A stretch of DNA of 64,000 bases, from positions 1-64,000 of the forward strand of contig JAFXUX010000033.1 of the NCBI GenBank assembly GCA_017524805.1, in the 5' to 3' direction. Positions 32,318-41,411 of this stretch are shown in pieces. The notes beneath the pieces are model-generated. The model was not told the DNA's origin, did not search any database, and worked only from the letters and a program-made list of their open reading frames with translations. Each line of letters opens with the position of its first letter. Position 1 is the stretch's first letter. This DNA is from Candidatus Methanomethylophilaceae archaeon. Lineage in GTDB: Archaea; Thermoplasmatota; Thermoplasmata; Methanomassiliicoccales; Methanomethylophilaceae. A program made the translations under genes and the position numbers.

Positions 32318-32880
32318 AGCAGATGACATCTTAGACCTCTGAAACCTAAAAATACCTCCCTGAACGATTCGCCCGACGCTGGGAGTGTCAATGCCGATCG
32401 CGCTGCGATTATCGATCCCGCGGCCGTCGCATGATACTGTCCAAACCTTGGCGCGCGGGAAGATACAGTTGGCGAAATACGAAGAGCTCGGAAAAGCGAT
32501 CGAAGAATCGGTGAGGAAATCCTGCGAGGGGAAGTCCGTCGGAGTGGCTTTTTCCGGCGGGATGGACTCGGGATTGATCGCCGCGCTCGCATCCAGATAT
32601 GCCAGGTCGGTCACATGCTATACCTGCGGCACGGACGGTTCCTTCGACGTCACCGCCGGAAAGGAACTGGCAGAGAAGCTGGGCCTCCCTTGGGTCCACT
32701 GCAGGATAAGCAGAGAGAACATAGAGGATACGATCCGCGAATTCATCGTGACCACAAAAGTAAGCGACCCTTTCACCATATCGTACGACCTCCAATTGTT
32801 TTGCGTGTGCCGCGAAGCCGAAGAAACCACGATCCTCTCCGGGCAAGGGAGCGACGAGTATTTCGGTGGATGTGCAACTT
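32318..32880 (+). repeat. Accessory segment copy A (recombinase tail plus Asn-synthase-like 5' part)
   Basis: The copy starts with the last codons of the tyrosine recombinase (TADDILDL, stop), followed by a promoter-like TGAAACCTAAAAATAC and the first 150 codons of an asparagine-synthase-like gene. The order is the same at 38920-39412 and 43297-44030. Similarity to the other copies ends near 32880. Confidence 0.8.
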
Positions 32881-32962: not shown

Positions 32963-33148
32963 ATGAAAGAACTTAGGAGGGAAAAATACCTTTCTAAAAT
33001 CCGTCCATTTTACAATGACAAGGACATAATCAAGGTCCTGACAGGGGCTCGCAGATGCGGAAAATCTACAATTATGAAACAGATAATGGACGATCTCGGC
33101 ACTGATACAAAAGTCGAGAAAACAATCGTGTATATCGATCTGCAATGA
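32963..33148 (+). pseudogene. AAA/DUF4143 ATPase fragment cut by an IS element
   Basis: Sixty-one residues keep the N-terminal helix and Walker A (VLTGARRCGKSTIMKQIM) of the same family as the gene at 20181. The frame reaches TIVYIDLQ and then hits a TGA formed at the left inverted repeat of the insertion sequence at 33143. The remainder of the gene is not found on the far side of the element. An AT-rich promoter (32900-32960) precedes it. Confidence 0.82.
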
Positions 33149-34993
33149 TTTCCTAAAATCATGTACCTTCGCAGAGCGAGGCATTTTTTGATCTGGCCAT
33201 TGTCCGAGGACCTGATCCTTTCCGCATGAGCGGCCTATAATCTCTATTTTTAGGGCAGCAGATCCGGATTCCGGCACTATAATCCATGGTTTCTTCGTCC
33301 GGAGGCATGTTTTCAATGCCGATATAGTACATTATAAATGATATATTTATATTCATGTACCATATTATATAATCGAAGGACATGAGGGTGCCCAAGGACA
33401 TCAGGGAGATGGAGAGGCCGGACCGTACGGTCGTGGAACCGTACCAGTCCGGCAGGTATGCGGTGAGGACGCGCATCGACAGATACGACGGCAAGGGCAA
33501 CCTCCTGTACAGGAAGAACCAGGTGATAGGGTACATCAGCGACTCGTACCATCCTATCATGCAGGAGAAGGCGCTGAAGTCTGTCGGGATTATAGATTCC
33601 AAGCAATACGGCGTCGCCAATCTCCTTAACGAACTGTGCAGGGACATCCTGAAGGACCTGTGCGAGTTCTACAGCTATCCGGATGCGGAATGGATCTACT
33701 GCGCCGCGCTGATCAGGGCGACCCATCCGGGCATCCCCGACTGCAAACTGAGGGCGCGGTACGTGCATTCGTTCGTATCCGAATTCTATCCGGGCGTGGC
33801 GATGAACAAGGATCACGTCACGGAGATGTTCACCCTTCTGGGTGAACAGTTCCGTACTACGGAGGCCTTCATGATCTCCCGTCTGGGGAAGGTGCCGGAG
33901 GACGAGCTCGTCGTCATCAACGGATGTCTGAAGCAGGATAACGGCGAAGGGCTGTCGATATCCAAGGCGTCCAGGACGGCGGCCGCCAAAGTATGCCACC
34001 ACCTGGCGATGTACGCATACAGCCCGTTGGAAGGGGAGCCGCTCTGTTCGAAGGTATATCCCGGGAACGTCACGGATGCCGTCGCGGTGAAGGATTTCGT
34101 GAAGAGCCTGAAGATACACAACGGGATCATCGTAGCCGACAGGGGTTTCAGACCCGAGGTGATGAGGAGAATTTCCGAGGAGCACAGGGGCCTTCATTAT
34201 CTCGTCCCGCTGATGAAGGGGCGTCTGGTGGCGGAGAGGTCGGGATGCTTTTCCTTCGATACGGTCATGATGCGCGACGACGGCCCGGTGAGCTGCAGGA
34301 GATCGGAAGCCAAGGGCAAGGACGGCGAGGGGCTGGGGTACTGGCTGTACTCCTTCAAGAATCCGAGAATCGCCGCGGAGATGGAGAGCGAATACCTGGA
34401 ACAAAACGCGGGCAAGCTTGACCCCGTTCTGCTGGAAGCGGAACGGAGATGGTTCGGGGTGCTGATACTCCAGTCCGATCATAAGATAGAGCCCGATTTC
34501 GCTTACGACTGCTATGACGACAGGTGGGGCATAGAGCCTCTCTTCAAACTGCACAAGACGGGGCTAGAGATCGATGACACCAGGGAGAAATCGGACGAGA
34601 CGGCGATAGGGAGCGAATTCGTCAACTATCTGGCCACCGTCATGTCGGCCAGGCTGAGGAACCACCTGGCAAAATTCGATTTCTGCAGGAACAGATCGTT
34701 CAAGGACGTGCTCTCTGATCTCCGCGACTGCGTGAAGGTCAGGAACGGCGACGGCGAATGGGAATTCCGCACGACCGCAGGCAAGGATATGAAGTTCTAT
34801 GTGAGGACGGGGGCTGTCACCGAACCGGATATGGTGGACATGTACGGTCTGAAGGAGACCGTTCCGCAGGAGGGTCCGCGCAGGCGCGGACGTCCTCTGG
34901 GCTCCAAGGATTCAAGGCCGAGGAAGAGACGCACCGCTGCAGAACTCGCCGCAACTCGGTCCGTCAAAAGTACATGATTTCAGGAAATCATTG
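33143..34993 (+). mobile_element. Insertion sequence with 24-bp terminal inverted repeats
   Basis: CAATGATTTCCTAAAATCAT opens the left end (repeat 33143-33166), and its reverse complement closes the right end (34970-34993) with one mismatch in 24 bases. One transposase gene lies inside. The repeat itself is partly self-complementary (GATTT and AAATC). Both ends seem intact, so the element may be recent. Confidence 0.9.
33382..34977 (+). CDS. IS4-superfamily transposase with AT-hook-like tail
   Basis: The 531-residue protein shows IS4-type blocks: VVINGCLKQDNG near residue 175, KVYPGNVTDAVAVKDFV, the Asp of IIVADRGFRPE near 250, and DRWGIEPLFKLHKTGLE with the Glu near 390. The place where relatives usually have a first catalytic Asp (IDGT) reads INGC here, so activity is uncertain. 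The C-terminus is basic and AT-hook-like (RRRGRPLGSKDSRPRKRR). CGAAGGA precedes ATG 33382. It is a different family from the transposase at 12-1577. Confidence 0.85.
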   Translation: MRVPKDIREMERPDRTVVEPYQSGRYAVRTRIDRYDGKGNLLYRKNQVIGYISDSYHPIMQEKALKSVGIIDSKQYGVANLLNELCRDILKDLCEFYSYPDAEWIYCAALIRATHPGIPDCKLRARYVHSFVSEFYPGVAMNKDHVTEMFTLLGEQFRTTEAFMISRLGKVPEDELVVINGCLKQDNGEGLSISKASRTAAAKVCHHLAMYAYSPLEGEPLCSKVYPGNVTDAVAVKDFVKSLKIHNGIIVADRGFRPEVMRRISEEHRGLHYLVPLMKGRLVAERSGCFSFDTVMMRDDGPVSCRRSEAKGKDGEGLGYWLYSFKNPRIAAEMESEYLEQNAGKLDPVLLEAERRWFGVLILQSDHKIEPDFAYDCYDDRWGIEPLFKLHKTGLEIDDTREKSDETAIGSEFVNYLATVMSARLRNHLAKFDFCRNRSFKDVLSDLRDCVKVRNGDGEWEFRTTAGKDMKFYVRTGAVTEPDMVDMYGLKETVPQEGPRRRGRPLGSKDSRPRKRRTAAELAATRSVKST

Positions 34994-35602: not shown

Positions 35603-36553
35603 TCAGAGAATTACGACAATTTTCCCGTTCGCTTTTCCGTCATCCAATGCCATGCATGCATCTCTTATCTCTGAGAAACGATAACATTCGGCATACTTCG
35701 GACGGAGTCCGTGTTCTTTGATGAAAGCGAAAATCGAATCCACCGTTCCCTGCGTAGGGTAATTGCTGAAGTAGCCGGTAAGGTAAACGCCGTTCGGTAT
35801 GTCCTTGATGGGGTCGAAACCGTTCAGAGAATAGATCCCTCCGAGTATGCCGGTGTCGCATACTATGCCGCCCTTCCTCACACAGCGAAGGGTATCCAGC
35901 AGACTCTTCGGACCAACGAGATCCAGTGCCTTGTCTGCTAATACCTTATCTTCCAGATCACCATCGTCGAGGATTGCGGTATCGGCTCTTCCGAGAAGAG
36001 GGATCTTGCTTTCTCTGTGGGTGGTGGCTATGACCTTGCAGCCCATCGCTTTGGCGATATCGATTGCTGCATATCCCAGTGCACACGTTGCACCGCGGAT
36101 GAGCAGAGTCTCATTCCTTTTCAGGCGGAGGCATTCGAACAGCGACCCCCATGCGGTCAGATAGGTTTCGGGTACGGCCGCGAGCTCGTCCCAAGGGAGA
36201 TCCGAATCTATCTTGAAGACATGATGAGCGGGAAGAACGGCGTATTCGGCATAACTGCCGTCGAAACTCCTCCCCATCCCACCCATCATAGCTATCACCC
36301 TATCCCCTACGGAGAAGGACGTATCGGATGCATCGGCGATCTCGCCGACACATTCGATGCCTGGAATCACGGGCTTGGCGATATAGTCCTCATCGATTTC
36401 CTCAAGACGGAGAATCTTCTCGGAATGATTCATCCCGAAGGCGCATATTCTGACCAACACCCATCCGGAACCGACCTCTGGAACCGGTACGTCGGTCAGC
36501 ACCACATCTTCCGCCTTGGTGATCCCATCTATCTTAACTGCTTTCATCATCAA
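35603..36553 (-). CDS. Medium-chain dehydrogenase/quinone-oxidoreductase-like protein of the peptide cluster
   Basis: The 316-residue protein has the GroES-like domain with GIECVGEIADASDTSFSVGD near residue 70, then a Rossmann domain with LLIRGATCALGYAAIDIAKA near 150, the NADPH-binding loop of quinone oxidoreductases. The structural-zinc cysteines of classical alcohol dehydrogenases are absent. It starts 20 bases inside the 3' end of the radical SAM gene (stop 36534), so the two are co-translated. I infer a reduction step in peptide maturation or in self-protection. Confidence 0.82.
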   Translation of the reverse strand: MMMKAVKIDGITKAEDVVLTDVPVPEVGSGWVLVRICAFGMNHSEKILRLEEIDEDYIAKPVIPGIECVGEIADASDTSFSVGDRVIAMMGGMGRSFDGSYAEYAVLPAHHVFKIDSDLPWDELAAVPETYLTAWGSLFECLRLKRNETLLIRGATCALGYAAIDIAKAMGCKVIATTHRESKIPLLGRADTAILDDGDLEDKVLADKALDLVGPKSLLDTLRCVRKGGIVCDTGILGGIYSLNGFDPIKDIPNGVYLTGYFSNYPTQGTVDSIFAFIKEHGLRPKYAECYRFSEIRDACMALDDGKANGKIVVIL

Positions 36554-37577
36554 TGCTAATCACCTTCCAGCACTGGGGGTCGGGAGCATACATGTCCCCG
36601 TGGTATCCTTTCGCCACCGCCGGGCATCCGCGGCAGAAACGAAGGAGTTCGCATTTCGAACATTTTTCGAAGTTCTCGTAAACCCTGTACATATCCATCT
36701 TCGGTCCGGTGAACAGATCGTACAGGTCGTCTTCAAGTGCATTCCCGACCTTGCTCTCCATCCTCCTGCATGCATAGACGGAACCGTCGGAAAGGATGGT
36801 CAGATGGGAATTCCCGCAGTTGCACCCGTCATAGACGTATTCGTCGTCAGGGTAATCCTTCGGATCGAAATCCCCTATCTCGTGACGGTAGAGCGTCCAC
36901 AGATGGTCCTTGAGATTGAAGGTCGTCCCCGAATCCTTGTATTGCTGATATTTCTTCCAGCACCTGTCCATCATATCCCTGTATTCCGTCGGGGAACACG
37001 TGGTATCCCTGTCGGCGAGGGAGGGACAGTAGCGGGCGAAAGCGAATATGTCGGCCTTGTTCCTCACCGCCTCGTCCACAAGCGAAGGAATCTCGGAAAC
37101 GTTCCACTTGGATACGGTGGACATTATGGCCACGTCAATCCCGGCATCGCGGAGCATCGGTATGGCGGACATCGTCGCATCGTAGGAACCGGGTTGTCTT
37201 ATCCTGTCGTGAGTATCCTTAAGACCGTCGAGGGAAAGCTGGTATTTCACGACCCCGAGTTCCCTCATGCGTCTGCACACTTCGGGGGTCAGATGGAATG
37301 GATTGCCGAGGATGGCGATACGCATATTGTCCTTTTTCAACAGTTCCAGAAGATCCCAGAAACGCGGATGGAGGATGGGGTCCCCGCCCGTTATGTACAG
37401 GTACGGTTCGCGTCCTGCCTTCCTGCAGAAGGCCCTGATGTTCTGAAGTACAGTCTCCATATCACTGAAAGACATCTCTCTGAACTTTGCATGGCTGCCG
37501 AGGGCGTAGATGTAGCAATGCTTGCATCTCTGATCGCACGCTTCCGTTATGTGCCACTGGAATGCGAAATAGGTCAT
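36534..37577 (-). CDS. Radical SAM/SPASM peptide maturase
   Basis: The 347-residue protein starts at ATG 37577 (MTYFAFQWHITEACDQRC). The cluster-binding CxxxCxxC reads ACDQRCKHCY. YITGGDPILHPRF is the SAM-binding GGE-like motif, and a SPASM domain with seven or more cysteines (CNCGNS, YACRRM, CSKCELLRFCRGCP, CW) lies at residues about 245-345, ready to bind auxiliary iron-sulfur clusters. This layout is typical of enzymes that install thioether or other bonds on ribosomal peptides. The gene follows directly behind a Cys-rich repeat peptide, its probable substrate. Confidence 0.92.
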   Translation of the reverse strand: MTYFAFQWHITEACDQRCKHCYIYALGSHAKFREMSFSDMETVLQNIRAFCRKAGREPYLYITGGDPILHPRFWDLLELLKKDNMRIAILGNPFHLTPEVCRRMRELGVVKYQLSLDGLKDTHDRIRQPGSYDATMSAIPMLRDAGIDVAIMSTVSKWNVSEIPSLVDEAVRNKADIFAFARYCPSLADRDTTCSPTEYRDMMDRCWKKYQQYKDSGTTFNLKDHLWTLYRHEIGDFDPKDYPDDEYVYDGCNCGNSHLTILSDGSVYACRRMESKVGNALEDDLYDLFTGPKMDMYRVYENFEKCSKCELLRFCRGCPAVAKGYHGDMYAPDPQCWKVISIDDESS

Positions 37578-37589
37578 GGTAAAATAAAC

Positions 37590-37605
37590 GCCTCCGTTTG
37601 GAGGC
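37590..37605 (-). promoter_or_regulatory. Intercistronic hairpin between precursor and maturase
   Basis: GCCTCC and GGAGGC form a perfect six-base-pair stem around the loop AAAC, seven bases after the precursor stop, followed by a T-rich stretch. The 3' arm contains the GGAGG that would serve the maturase start. Folding would both attenuate transcription and hide the ribosome binding site, keeping precursor in excess over enzyme. This is inference from structure only. Confidence 0.6.
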
Positions 37606-37612
37606 AATGAAA

Positions 37613-37738
37613 TCAGTTTTTCTTGTCACCGGATCCGCATGCGCTGCCGCAGGCCGATGCTTTCTTGTCACCGGATCCGCATGCGCTGCCGCAGGCGGAG
37701 GAGACGTCGTTTCTTCCGAACATATTCTTGAGAGCCAT
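37613..37738 (-). CDS. Cys-rich RiPP precursor peptide with ACGS repeats
   Basis: A 41-residue peptide: leader MALKNMFGRNDVSS, then two copies of ACGSACGSGDKK separated by AS and ending in N. Each repeat has two cysteines, each preceded by Ala and followed by Gly-Ser. The DNA of the repeats is an exact 42-base tandem duplication over at least 33 bases (37622 and 37664). The gene is directly upstream of the radical SAM/SPASM gene. Repetitive ACGX peptides paired with such enzymes are known as a RiPP class; I recall the pattern but could not check it. The four cysteines are the likely modification sites. Confidence 0.85.
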   Translation of the reverse strand: MALKNMFGRNDVSSACGSACGSGDKKASACGSACGSGDKKN

Positions 37739-37771
37739 TCTTGAAACCTCAGTATTGTATTCAAAAACAAT

Positions 37772-37801
37772 TATATAAATTAGTAAGATATCATTTATAT
37801 A
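37772..37801. promoter_or_regulatory. Divergent promoter with mirrored TATA boxes
   Basis: TATATAAAT (37772-37780) and ATTTATATA (37793-37801) are perfect complements with a 12-base spacer. Each is placed as a TATA box for one of the divergent transcripts: the precursor starting at 37738 and the TetR gene at 37849. The symmetric site is also a natural operator for the dimeric TetR-family protein. Confidence 0.6.
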
Positions 37802-37848
37802 GAATTAAAACAAAACCGTCTATAATGTTCTAATTTGGAAGGGAGACG

Positions 37849-38460
37849 ATGGGAAGATACGAGAAAGCCAGCGGAAAGACCGAACGCGCGATCCAAGAGG
37901 CATATTGGGAGCTGTACGAGAAAGGCGATGCGGGGAGGATAACCATCGACGAGGTGTGTGCATCCGCAGGTGTGCATAGATCCACCTTCTATTATCATTT
38001 CAGGAGCGTGGATGCAATCCTCGAATCCATCAAGGAAAGACAGATCCGTCTCCTGAAAGAACTGTTCGATAATACGGGAGGGAAGGATGTGGATTTCCAG
38101 AAGTTCATTCCCGCATTCCAGGAACTCTTCGCAGAGAATGAACGCTATCTAATTCCTCTCGTAATCGAATACGGCGACAGGGAATTCTCGTTCAGATACA
38201 GATCGTATCTGGAGGATATGATGTTCGAGCATCTGAAGATCACATTTCAGCAGCACGACGACCGGACCGCAGGCGTACTGGAGATCGTGATATCCGGAAT
38301 GGTCAATATGTTCCTGATATCACTGGCGACCCACACGGTCTCCCTTGAGGATTCCAATCTCCTTTCCCACGGAATGATAAACGTGGGATTGAGATCCGTA
38401 CTCCGCGACAATTTCGGAATACATATAGGATTCACGACAATGGCATCGTTGTTTCGATGA
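37849..38460 (+). CDS. TetR/AcrR-family regulator of the peptide cluster
   Basis: The 203-residue protein has an N-terminal helix-turn-helix (ITIDEVCASAGVHRSTFYYH, residues about 31-50) with the conserved FYYHF, and a variable ligand-binding part ending in helices with FLISLATHTVSLEDSN. ATG 37849 follows GGAAGGGAG. It diverges from the precursor operon over a 110-base promoter region, so it probably represses that operon and its own gene until a ligand binds. Confidence 0.9.
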   Translation: MGRYEKASGKTERAIQEAYWELYEKGDAGRITIDEVCASAGVHRSTFYYHFRSVDAILESIKERQIRLLKELFDNTGGKDVDFQKFIPAFQELFAENERYLIPLVIEYGDREFSFRYRSYLEDMMFEHLKITFQQHDDRTAGVLEIVISGMVNMFLISLATHTVSLEDSNLLSHGMINVGLRSVLRDNFGIHIGFTTMASLFR

Positions 38461-39119: not shown

Positions 39120-39412
39120 AACTTAGAAATACTTTACCAAACGATTTACCCATCTGAGGATTCGAGTATCAAGAATCACTCAGCTGGGATTTTTCTTTGG
39201 AATGATCCTCCCTGATTATTGGACAGATACCCGTCTAACCTTGAAACGTGGGAAGATACAGTTGGCGAAATACGAAGCTCTCGGTAACGCGATCGAATCC
39301 GCAGTCCGGAAAGCCTGCGAAGGCAAGGAAGTGGGAATCGCTTTCTCCGGCGGAATGGATTCGGGATTGATTGTTGCACTTGCAAAGAACTGCGCCAGAT
39401 CTGTCATCTGCT
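38920..39412 (+). repeat. Accessory segment copy B
   Basis: The copy holds the recombinase catalytic tail, its TGA, the promoter-like AAACTTAGAAATACTTTACC, and the first 55-60 codons of an asparagine-synthase-like gene. The DNA from 39248 to about 39412 is almost identical to copy C from 43607. Confidence 0.82.
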
Positions 39413-39483
39413 ACACCCTGGAACGTCCGTGTCCCGAATTGGTGCGTACCGGCATCCGCCTGCGGTTCGCGGAACCGAACTAA
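39202..39483 (+). pseudogene. Asparagine-synthase-like gene, short fragment
   Basis: Only the N-terminal 60 residues of the family remain (RGKIQLAKYEALGNAIES, then IAFSGGMDSGLIVALAKNCA and ICYT). Similarity to the intact gene at 43598 is lost after CYT; the last 23 residues before TAA are unrelated. The PP-loop is kept but the protein cannot be functional. Confidence 0.82.
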
Positions 39484-40385: not shown

Positions 40386-41411
40386 TTACCACTTGTTCTT
40401 ACTGCGCCAGCAGAATATCTTCCTGAACGTACTTAATGCTGATTCACCGCCTTCTTTTCTGGAGGATATTATCGTTTTCGGATAGTTTTCGTTTACCTTG
40501 TTTACTGCGGACTTGCCTGTGATGTTGGTTCCTTCCCGGATTGCGCCCCCGGATCTCATTGTAGTTCTGTCGCTGTCACGGGTATTTCTGCCAGACACAT
40601 CGTATCTGTCGTTTTTCCAATACCCTGATACTTCCTCAGATTTGTGTTTCAAACGCAATTCCGTCTCTGCTGCGGTAGCGGTTTCTTCGGCATTTCTTAC
40701 CTGTTTGATCGATTTTCCTTTCATCCTTCCGCATTTGACGTTACCTTTTCCATCGGTAGGATATGCGGTCTTCGCATATTTGTCGCGGTCACCGTCTACG
40801 GTCCTCATGTGATGTACCATCTCGTGGGTCACGGTCATCTCGCTGGGGTTGGTCTTTAGGATTATCGTCGGAGACTCGCCATTGTCCTTGGTGGTCGGTC
40901 TGGCATATCCACCGTTCTTTCCGTCAAGGTTGCCGTTAACAACGAAGGGTTTTCCGAAACGGTCTATTTTATCAATTTCGTCTTTTGAAAAGTTCTCCGT
41001 TACTGTCTTGAGCACTTTCTTTTTCGTGGCTTCGGTACAATCGAACTTGAATGCACTTTCAGCGGATTTCATCTGCGGAGTGTATCCACTAATGGTTTTT
41101 CTGCCAGTTCCGCGTCCTCTTCCGGTACTTCTACTAGATCTGTGCGACGAGGTTGCTCTGGAAGCGGTTCTGGTCTTTGAAGAAGATCTTCCTGAAGACG
41201 TTGGAGTGACGGTCTTCCTGGACGAAGCATGCTGTTTGAAGCCTTTGGCGAACGTACCGTCAGAATGCCTTCTCTGTTTTCTTGCCTGCAGAGATCTTGC
41301 TTTGGATGCTGATGATGCGGTATTTCTGCGTGAAGATGCTGATTTTGTACGTCTTGTTGTTCTCGAATTTGTTGCCTTACGGGTAGTTTTACCCCTTGTA
41401 ATTCTTGTCAT
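40386..41411 (-). CDS. Putative zinc metallopeptidase with Ser/Arg-rich N-terminus
   Basis: The 341-residue protein has a very basic, low-complexity first 110 residues (TTRKATNSRTTRRTKSASSR) and a globular part containing SEMTVTHEMVHHMRTVDGDR; HEMVHH fits the zinc-binding HExxH of metallopeptidases. A third ligand may be a Glu near AEETATAAETEL. The basic tail suggests DNA or capsid association, as in plasmid transfer or virion proteins. It is divergent from the RHH regulator at 41509. Function is inferred from one motif only. Confidence 0.6.
   Translation of the reverse strand: MTRITRGKTTRKATNSRTTRRTKSASSRRNTASSASKARSLQARKQRRHSDGTFAKGFKQHASSRKTVTPTSSGRSSSKTRTASRATSSHRSSRSTGRGRGTGRKTISGYTPQMKSAESAFKFDCTEATKKKVLKTVTENFSKDEIDKIDRFGKPFVVNGNLDGKNGGYARPTTKDNGESPTIILKTNPSEMTVTHEMVHHMRTVDGDRDKYAKTAYPTDGKGNVKCGRMKGKSIKQVRNAEETATAAETELRLKHKSEEVSGYWKNDRYDVSGRNTRDSDRTTMRSGGAIREGTNITGKSAVNKVNENYPKTIISSRKEGGESALSTFRKIFCWRSKNKW

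Follow-up and report, generated by a model that had tools for sequence, protein, structure and literature searches.

The Methanomethylophilaceae methanogen whose DNA we analysed, an archaeon of gut or rumen, carries an operon that belongs firmly to the ACGX system of ribosomally synthesized and post-translationally modified peptides (RiPPs). The window, by which we mean the whole stretch of 64,000 nucleotides (assembly GCA_017524805.1, contig JAFXUX010000033.1, positions 1 to 64,000), encodes a short repeat peptide, AcgA, a radical SAM/SPASM maturase, AcgM, a reductase and a divergent regulator. With modest confidence, we favour a reading in which the operon makes an intracellular peptide that handles redox or electrophile chemistry together with its reductase.

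The family itself was known, with NCBI models and gene names: acgA and acgM already stand in RefSeq annotation, and a Roseburia plasmid has acgA, acgM and a nitroreductase gene in the same order as here. We now see it in a methanogen, with a predicted chemistry that lies between two options, heterocycle or thioether. The proposed redox role is the new part, and we infer it from gene neighbourhood; our survey offers a concrete hypothesis for a so far nameless RiPP, that of a redox- or electrophile-stress peptide served by interchangeable reductases. The open literature that we searched contained no paper on the chemistry or role of ACGX, TIGR04340/04341 or acgM/acgA, and no paper on the ACGX system among those on archaeal radical SAM RiPPs. 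As far as could be checked, the new observations are a reductase partner at all 42 loci examined, the usual HxlR regulator with TetR in the window's clade, a Zn-macrodomain/SirTM run-on in Lachnospirales, and a Cys or Asp/Glu four residues after the motif cysteine.

A repeat peptide of the ACGX family

A sequence-only reading of the window had described a 41-residue peptide, a radical SAM/SPASM gene, an overlapping quinone-oxidoreductase-type gene and a divergent TetR gene, had taken them for a radical SAM RiPP operon and had pointed to a class with ACGX repeats. All four genes are present as described (Table 1), the operon reading is supported, and searching peptide and maturase against family models finds that class as TIGR04340 (rSAM_ACGX) and TIGR04341. 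AcgM scores 587 bits on the former (cut-off 400). AcgA reaches 26.2 bits on the latter, just under the cut-off of 28, where three close orthologues with the same unit score 30.8, 35.8 and 36.7 bits and a Lachnospiraceae peptide (L037) 40.6; divergent archaeal AcgA peptides reach 12.9–16.4 bits, and the peptide of L112, from Lachnospirales, has no match at all. The peptide model in its present form thus overlooks genuine family members.

On its sequence, AcgA is formed by a short conserved leader and repeats in which nearly every cysteine sits in [A/S]-C-G-[S/A/T]. The window's gene lies about 33 nt upstream of acgM and places four ACGS motifs within 41 residues. We counted 186 CG motifs in 36 peptides (repeats within one peptide are not independent). 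Gly follows nearly every cysteine, Ala or Ser precedes most, and 183 of the 186 motifs have S, A or T at +2. Position +4 is Cys in 78 and Asp/Glu in 91, together 169/186, while the residues between vary; most exceptions are last, C-terminal units or come from a Methanosphaera peptide with a split maturase. Thus 91 of the 108 ACGX cysteines without Cys at +4 have an acid there, against an Asp/Glu content of 12% in the core. In the window's precursor the second cysteine of each unit shows this CX3D/E pattern as C-GSG-D.

The two units are exact repeats, as had been claimed, identical over all 36 bases, and this is what could favour a chance open reading frame (ORF) in tandem DNA. We give that explanation a negligible chance; orthologues refute it, with conservation at the protein level across archaea and Firmicutes alongside synonymous divergence. 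Between the four units of one relative (G077, L041) there are up to 10 synonymous and 0 non-synonymous differences, and the window's acgA differs from that of L045 at 6, 2 and 14 sites in codon positions 1, 2 and 3. Our comparisons covered 31 genomes of the genus, 147 of the order and 392 sampled Lachnospirales genomes. Within the genus, a DNA pattern of the ACGSACGS type is confined to acg loci, in 8 genomes; a ninth acg genome has ACGASCGA, outside that pattern. All nine genomes of the genus with acgM keep the peptide, units of twelve residues numbering 1.5 to 4 in the window's clade, and wherever the sequence ahead of an intact acgM was available, it encodes an ACGX peptide. Neither a maturase lacking an adjacent ACGX peptide nor an unconserved peptide frame, which the sequence-only reading had named as evidence against itself, was found; relatives keep the gene order with varying repeat number.

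A reductase partner and a possible redox role

We surveyed 44 loci and left out one that ends at a contig edge and one below-cut-off outlier (L114). In 42 of the remaining 42, the first recognised gene downstream of acgM encodes a reductase (MDR 17, nitroreductase 20, PPOX-ferredoxin 5), and such partners stand at 3 of 24 other SPASM loci (p = 1e-11 versus acgM loci). MDR and nitroreductase are mutually exclusive except at L106 (25–26% matches aside), and the AcgM tree requires at least 3 switches between them. Within the order, the genomes that have a gene like the window's reductase (E ≤ 1e-30) are precisely the nine acgM-bearing ones of the genus, each with an intact copy directly downstream of acgM (Fisher p = 5e-8 within the genus). 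The pairing picked out earlier as deserving attention is conserved and, within the order, exclusive to acgM genomes; judged by gene content, an NAD(P)H-type reductase gene is co-inherited with acgM. The window's protein has its usual catalytic zinc ligands replaced (GMNHSE and GIE, which we take to be the ligand positions).

The divergent regulator gene encodes an HxlR protein with an N-terminal CP motif at most loci and a TetR protein in the window's clade, L037 and L112. Regulators of the DUF24/HxlR type respond to quinones, diamide and aldehydes, and in Bacillus subtilis a nitroreductase is under their control (PMC6943732). Between acgA and acgM, a G+C hairpin occupies the same place in all nine clade loci, with energies (short flanks) of −11.9 to −20.9 kcal/mol (window −11.9, z −2.88); the automatic alignment holds no doubly changed pair, hence covariation is not claimed.

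These neighbours suggest a redox or electrophile stress role rather than an exported antibiotic. In the mechanism that we propose, AcgM would recognise the MALxN leader, work along the repeats and modify each ACGX cysteine, and the modified peptide with the reductase would form a redox-active or electrophile-handling system. Redox or electrophile stress would induce the operon through TetR (HxlR in most relatives), and the hairpin may hold enzyme output below that of the peptide. No exporter or leader peptidase recurs among the three ORFs on each side in the loci listed (read by eye, not an exhaustive domain scan), for which reason the product is probably retained in the cell.

Many SPASM-matured cysteine peptides are antimicrobials (PMC8326336), and the patchy distribution and plasmid copies would also suit an exported, bacteriocin-like RiPP acting on competitors. 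We hold this to be unlikely, as no transporter, immunity or protease gene recurs among the neighbours read and every locus examined has a reductase partner. A metallothionein-like thiol store, with the peptide modified or not and the reductase a merely co-regulated detoxification enzyme, is in our view very unlikely: it would account for the regular C-x3-C spacing and variable unit number, but it would make a dedicated, conserved radical SAM enzyme superfluous, some units have a single cysteine (L104, L106, L107, L112), and no known metal-responsive regulator lies alongside.

SirTM/Zn-macro pairs often sit beside acg genes in Lachnospirales. Here the operon can run on into genes for PPOX-ferredoxin, a Zn-macrodomain ADP-ribosylhydrolase and a SirTM-like sirtuin (L059, 5056–7972; also L058, L089, L095, L101, L103, L107 and L111). 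A seed search places a Zn-macrodomain or SirTM-like gene at 14/28 bacterial loci with downstream sequence, and 10 of the 26 Lachnospirales genomes with acgM have a Zn-macro gene no more than about 4 kb away from it. Among the Lachnospirales genomes sampled, Zn-macro is enriched in those with acgM (19/26 versus 101/366, p = 5e-6). Known SirTM/Zn-macro operons respond to oxidative stress, their partners include the oxidoreductases OYE and LLM, and GcvH-L is the only target known for them (PMC4518038, PMC11490716). A bolder version of the redox reading, rather unlikely as a whole, would make the ACGX peptide an intracellular ribosomal redox carrier or electrophile sink, each ACGX cysteine converted by AcgM into a redox-active heterocycle or a thioether ladder, recycled by interchangeable NAD(P)H/flavin reductases and controlled by HxlR/TetR sensors of electrophiles; in Firmicutes it would take the place of lipoyl-GcvH-L in the SirTM/macrodomain operon, possibly as a SirTM target.

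Several points weigh against our favoured reading as a whole. The archaeal genus shows no Zn-macro enrichment with acgM (4/9 versus 10/22, p = 1), an exporter or peptidase could be encoded elsewhere, and neighbour genes can mislead as to function. Because the loci share descent, the p-values treat them as more independent than they are. On the side of chemistry, the window's AcgM stays at 200 bits on the SbtM model (TIGR04082), well below its cut-off of 350.

Maturase and candidate chemistries

AcgM has the CxxxCxxC cysteines and all seven canonical SPASM cysteines, invariant in 39 sequences, and by its sequence is an intact radical SAM/SPASM enzyme tied to the ACGX peptide. It begins directly in the radical SAM domain and therefore has no N-terminal RiPP recognition element (RRE). 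An AlphaFold model built from four sequences (mean predicted local distance difference test score 54, SPASM region below 30) is too poor for fold search; a profile comparison puts SkfB, 5v1q and 5wgg closest among solved structures, the last two being SuiB and CteB. Two other assignments were rejected: a mycofactocin MftC type (84 bits on TIGR03962, below the cut-off of 265) and viperin (59.7 bits on NF038283, cut-off 180), where PADLOC pVip matches (65 and 55 bits) are explained by the radical SAM domain common to both.

For three divergent AcgM proteins, SbtM ranks second among the NCBIfam models (200, 158 and 190 bits), ahead of heme-synthesis and thioether maturases; on the PapB model (NF047865) AcgM reaches 63 bits, below the cut-off of 340. 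SbtM forms a thiooxazole by stripping a Cys peptide of four hydrogens (PMC11002830). We tentatively prefer a comparable local modification, in which AcgM would make a thiooxazole or similar heterocycle at each cysteine and the reductase would keep the redox-active or metal-binding sulfur reduced. The SbtM ranking and the Gly after and Ala/Ser before the cysteines are consistent with this; the sub-threshold SbtM score and the lack of any selenocysteine version seen speak against it, and the Cys/Asp/Glu at +4 is left unexplained.

A close second, and possible, is a ranthipeptide in which AcgM, like PapB, would join the cysteine sulfur by a thioether to the residue at +4, at the beta carbon of Asp or the gamma carbon of Glu. 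PapB acts on CX3D/E motifs (PMC9413430), the acid at +4 is frequent although the X positions vary, and the nearest profile structures include 5wgg and SkfB. Set against this, +4 is Cys and not an acid for 78 of the 186 cysteines, the PapB score is low and an N-terminal RRE is missing, and PapB tolerates varied X, so that the strict A-C-G context would go unexplained. The thioether or related links that the sequence-only reading had placed on the four cysteines are accordingly not established as thioethers, the nearest characterised maturase being SbtM and not a thioether synthase. A local heterocycle accounts for the A-C-G context and a thioether for the +4 acid, so sequence decides neither. 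The two differ in predicted mass, by −4 Da per Cys (thiooxazole) and −2 Da per ring (thioether).

Locus, distribution and related systems

Table 1. Features of the acg locus (positions in the window)
Feature	Position	Strand	Basis or detail
acgA, 41-aa ACGX-repeat precursor peptide	37613–37738	minus	Translation MALKNMFGRNDVSSACGSACGSGDKKASACGSACGSGDKKN; leader MALKNMFGRNDVSS then two ACGSACGSGDKK units; TIGR04341 26.2 bits
First ACGSACGSGDKK unit, residues 15–26	37661–37696	minus	C-x3-C-x3-D spacing
Second ACGSACGSGDKK unit, residues 29–40	37619–37654	minus	DNA identical to first unit
Intercistronic hairpin TGCCTCC-AAAC-GGAGGCG, contains likely acgM ribosome-binding site	37589–37606	minus	Folding, −11.9 kcal/mol
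acgM, radical SAM/SPASM maturase	36534–37577	minus	TIGR04340 587 bits; PF04055 Radical_SAM and PF13186 SPASM
Zinc-less MDR/quinone-oxidoreductase-type reductase, PIG3-like	35603–36550	minus	Sequence and domain matches
TetR-family regulator gene, divergent	37849–38460	plus	PF00440
Divergent intergenic region, 110 nt, AT-rich	37739–37848		Blocks conserved in 8 loci

The mechanically listed maturase ORF begins at a TTG (37607); the ATG at 37577, with GGAGG before it, is the likelier start. The 3′ end of acgM overlaps the reductase gene by 14–17 nt, and the divergent intergenic region is presumed to hold promoters and operator. No RNA family matched at the locus.

Just downstream of the TetR gene, ORF 38550–39119 matches phage integrases over their C-terminal part (PF00589) and may be a trace of earlier mobility. 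An insertion sequence occupies 33143–34993, its DDE transposase ORF (33382–34977) lying between inverted repeats of 27 nt that are 93% complementary. Two short asparagine-synthase-like ORFs share in their 5′ ends a direct repeat of 192 nt (74%; 32433–32624 and 39226–39417), whose copies lie on either side of the acg operon, the insertion sequence and the integrase fragment; at L044, a 321-aa relative adjoins the TetR gene. The 341-residue product of ORF 40386–41411 has many Arg, Thr and Ser residues and matches no Pfam family.

Over the TIGR04340 cut-off, acgM is found in 11/147 genomes of the order, nine of them in the window's genus (9/31), and the two nearest named relatives are metagenome-assembled genomes of Methanomethylophilaceae and Methanomassiliicoccaceae. 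The methanogen host, to which the sequence-only reading had drawn attention, is not special, given maturases over the cut-off in 26/392 sampled Lachnospirales genomes and AcgM relatives on plasmids of Methanosphaera, Roseburia and Subdoligranulum; among the bacterial maturases found, the nearest shows 72% identity. No relative was found on viral contigs, and a scan of genome contigs gave three loci only, two also reached by the genome search. In a quick AcgM tree (SH-aLRT support only), archaeal sequences and three bacterial ones form a starred group of 15, and three archaea/bacteria switches are required, at least 2 of them by starred branches; transfer of acg between the domains is therefore likely on this tree.

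Five loci hold cassette-related TetR/MDR fragments without acgM or peptide (L115 in G082, L116 in G092, L119 in G080, L120 in G088:C92 and L121 in G081:C48), which suggests that the cassette has been lost repeatedly. Decayed acg loci are also seen in G016 (L048, 3159–4407), where acgM has a stop and a frameshift and a degenerate peptide precedes it, and on Methanosphaera plasmid pNP174 (L060, 3377–4729), where acgM is annotated in two pieces. Two genomes have two acg loci each, G088 (L038, L039) and G485 (L098, L104), and the G485 copies differ in first partner (PPOX then MDR versus MDR). The outlier L114 (G352; maturase 379 bits) has neither ACGX peptide nor redox partner and fits the family boundary, and other SPASM loci of the order with more distant maturases (L018–L022) show no convincing ACGX-like peptide nearby.

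Compared with the ACGX system of NCBIfam, the window shares a maturase far over cut-off, an ACGX-repeat peptide directly upstream and a leader of MALxN type; it differs in a peptide just under the TIGR04341 cut-off, in TetR instead of the usual HxlR and in MDR instead of the commoner nitroreductase. The extended SirTM/Zn-macro operon (GcvH-L, LplA2, OYE, LLM) shares with many Lachnospirales loci a Zn-macrodomain and/or SirTM-like gene after the acg genes, with a reductase beside; no GcvH-L or LplA was noticed at acg loci, where no specific search was made, and the window's own locus lacks the pair. Freyrasin-type PapA/PapB ranthipeptides share repeated CX3D/E motifs and several presumed modifications per peptide, whereas the ACGX system departs from them in its 63-bit PapB score, the missing N-terminal RRE, the strict A-C-G context and many C-x3-C pairs. 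SbtM/SbtA thio(seleno)oxazole RiPPs (TIGR04082) differ from AcgM in its 200-bit score against a cut-off of 350, in selenocysteine and in the first ~197 SbtM model positions, which AcgM lacks; they nevertheless provide the nearest characterised maturase model, alike across the whole radical SAM/SPASM part and in targeting cysteine.

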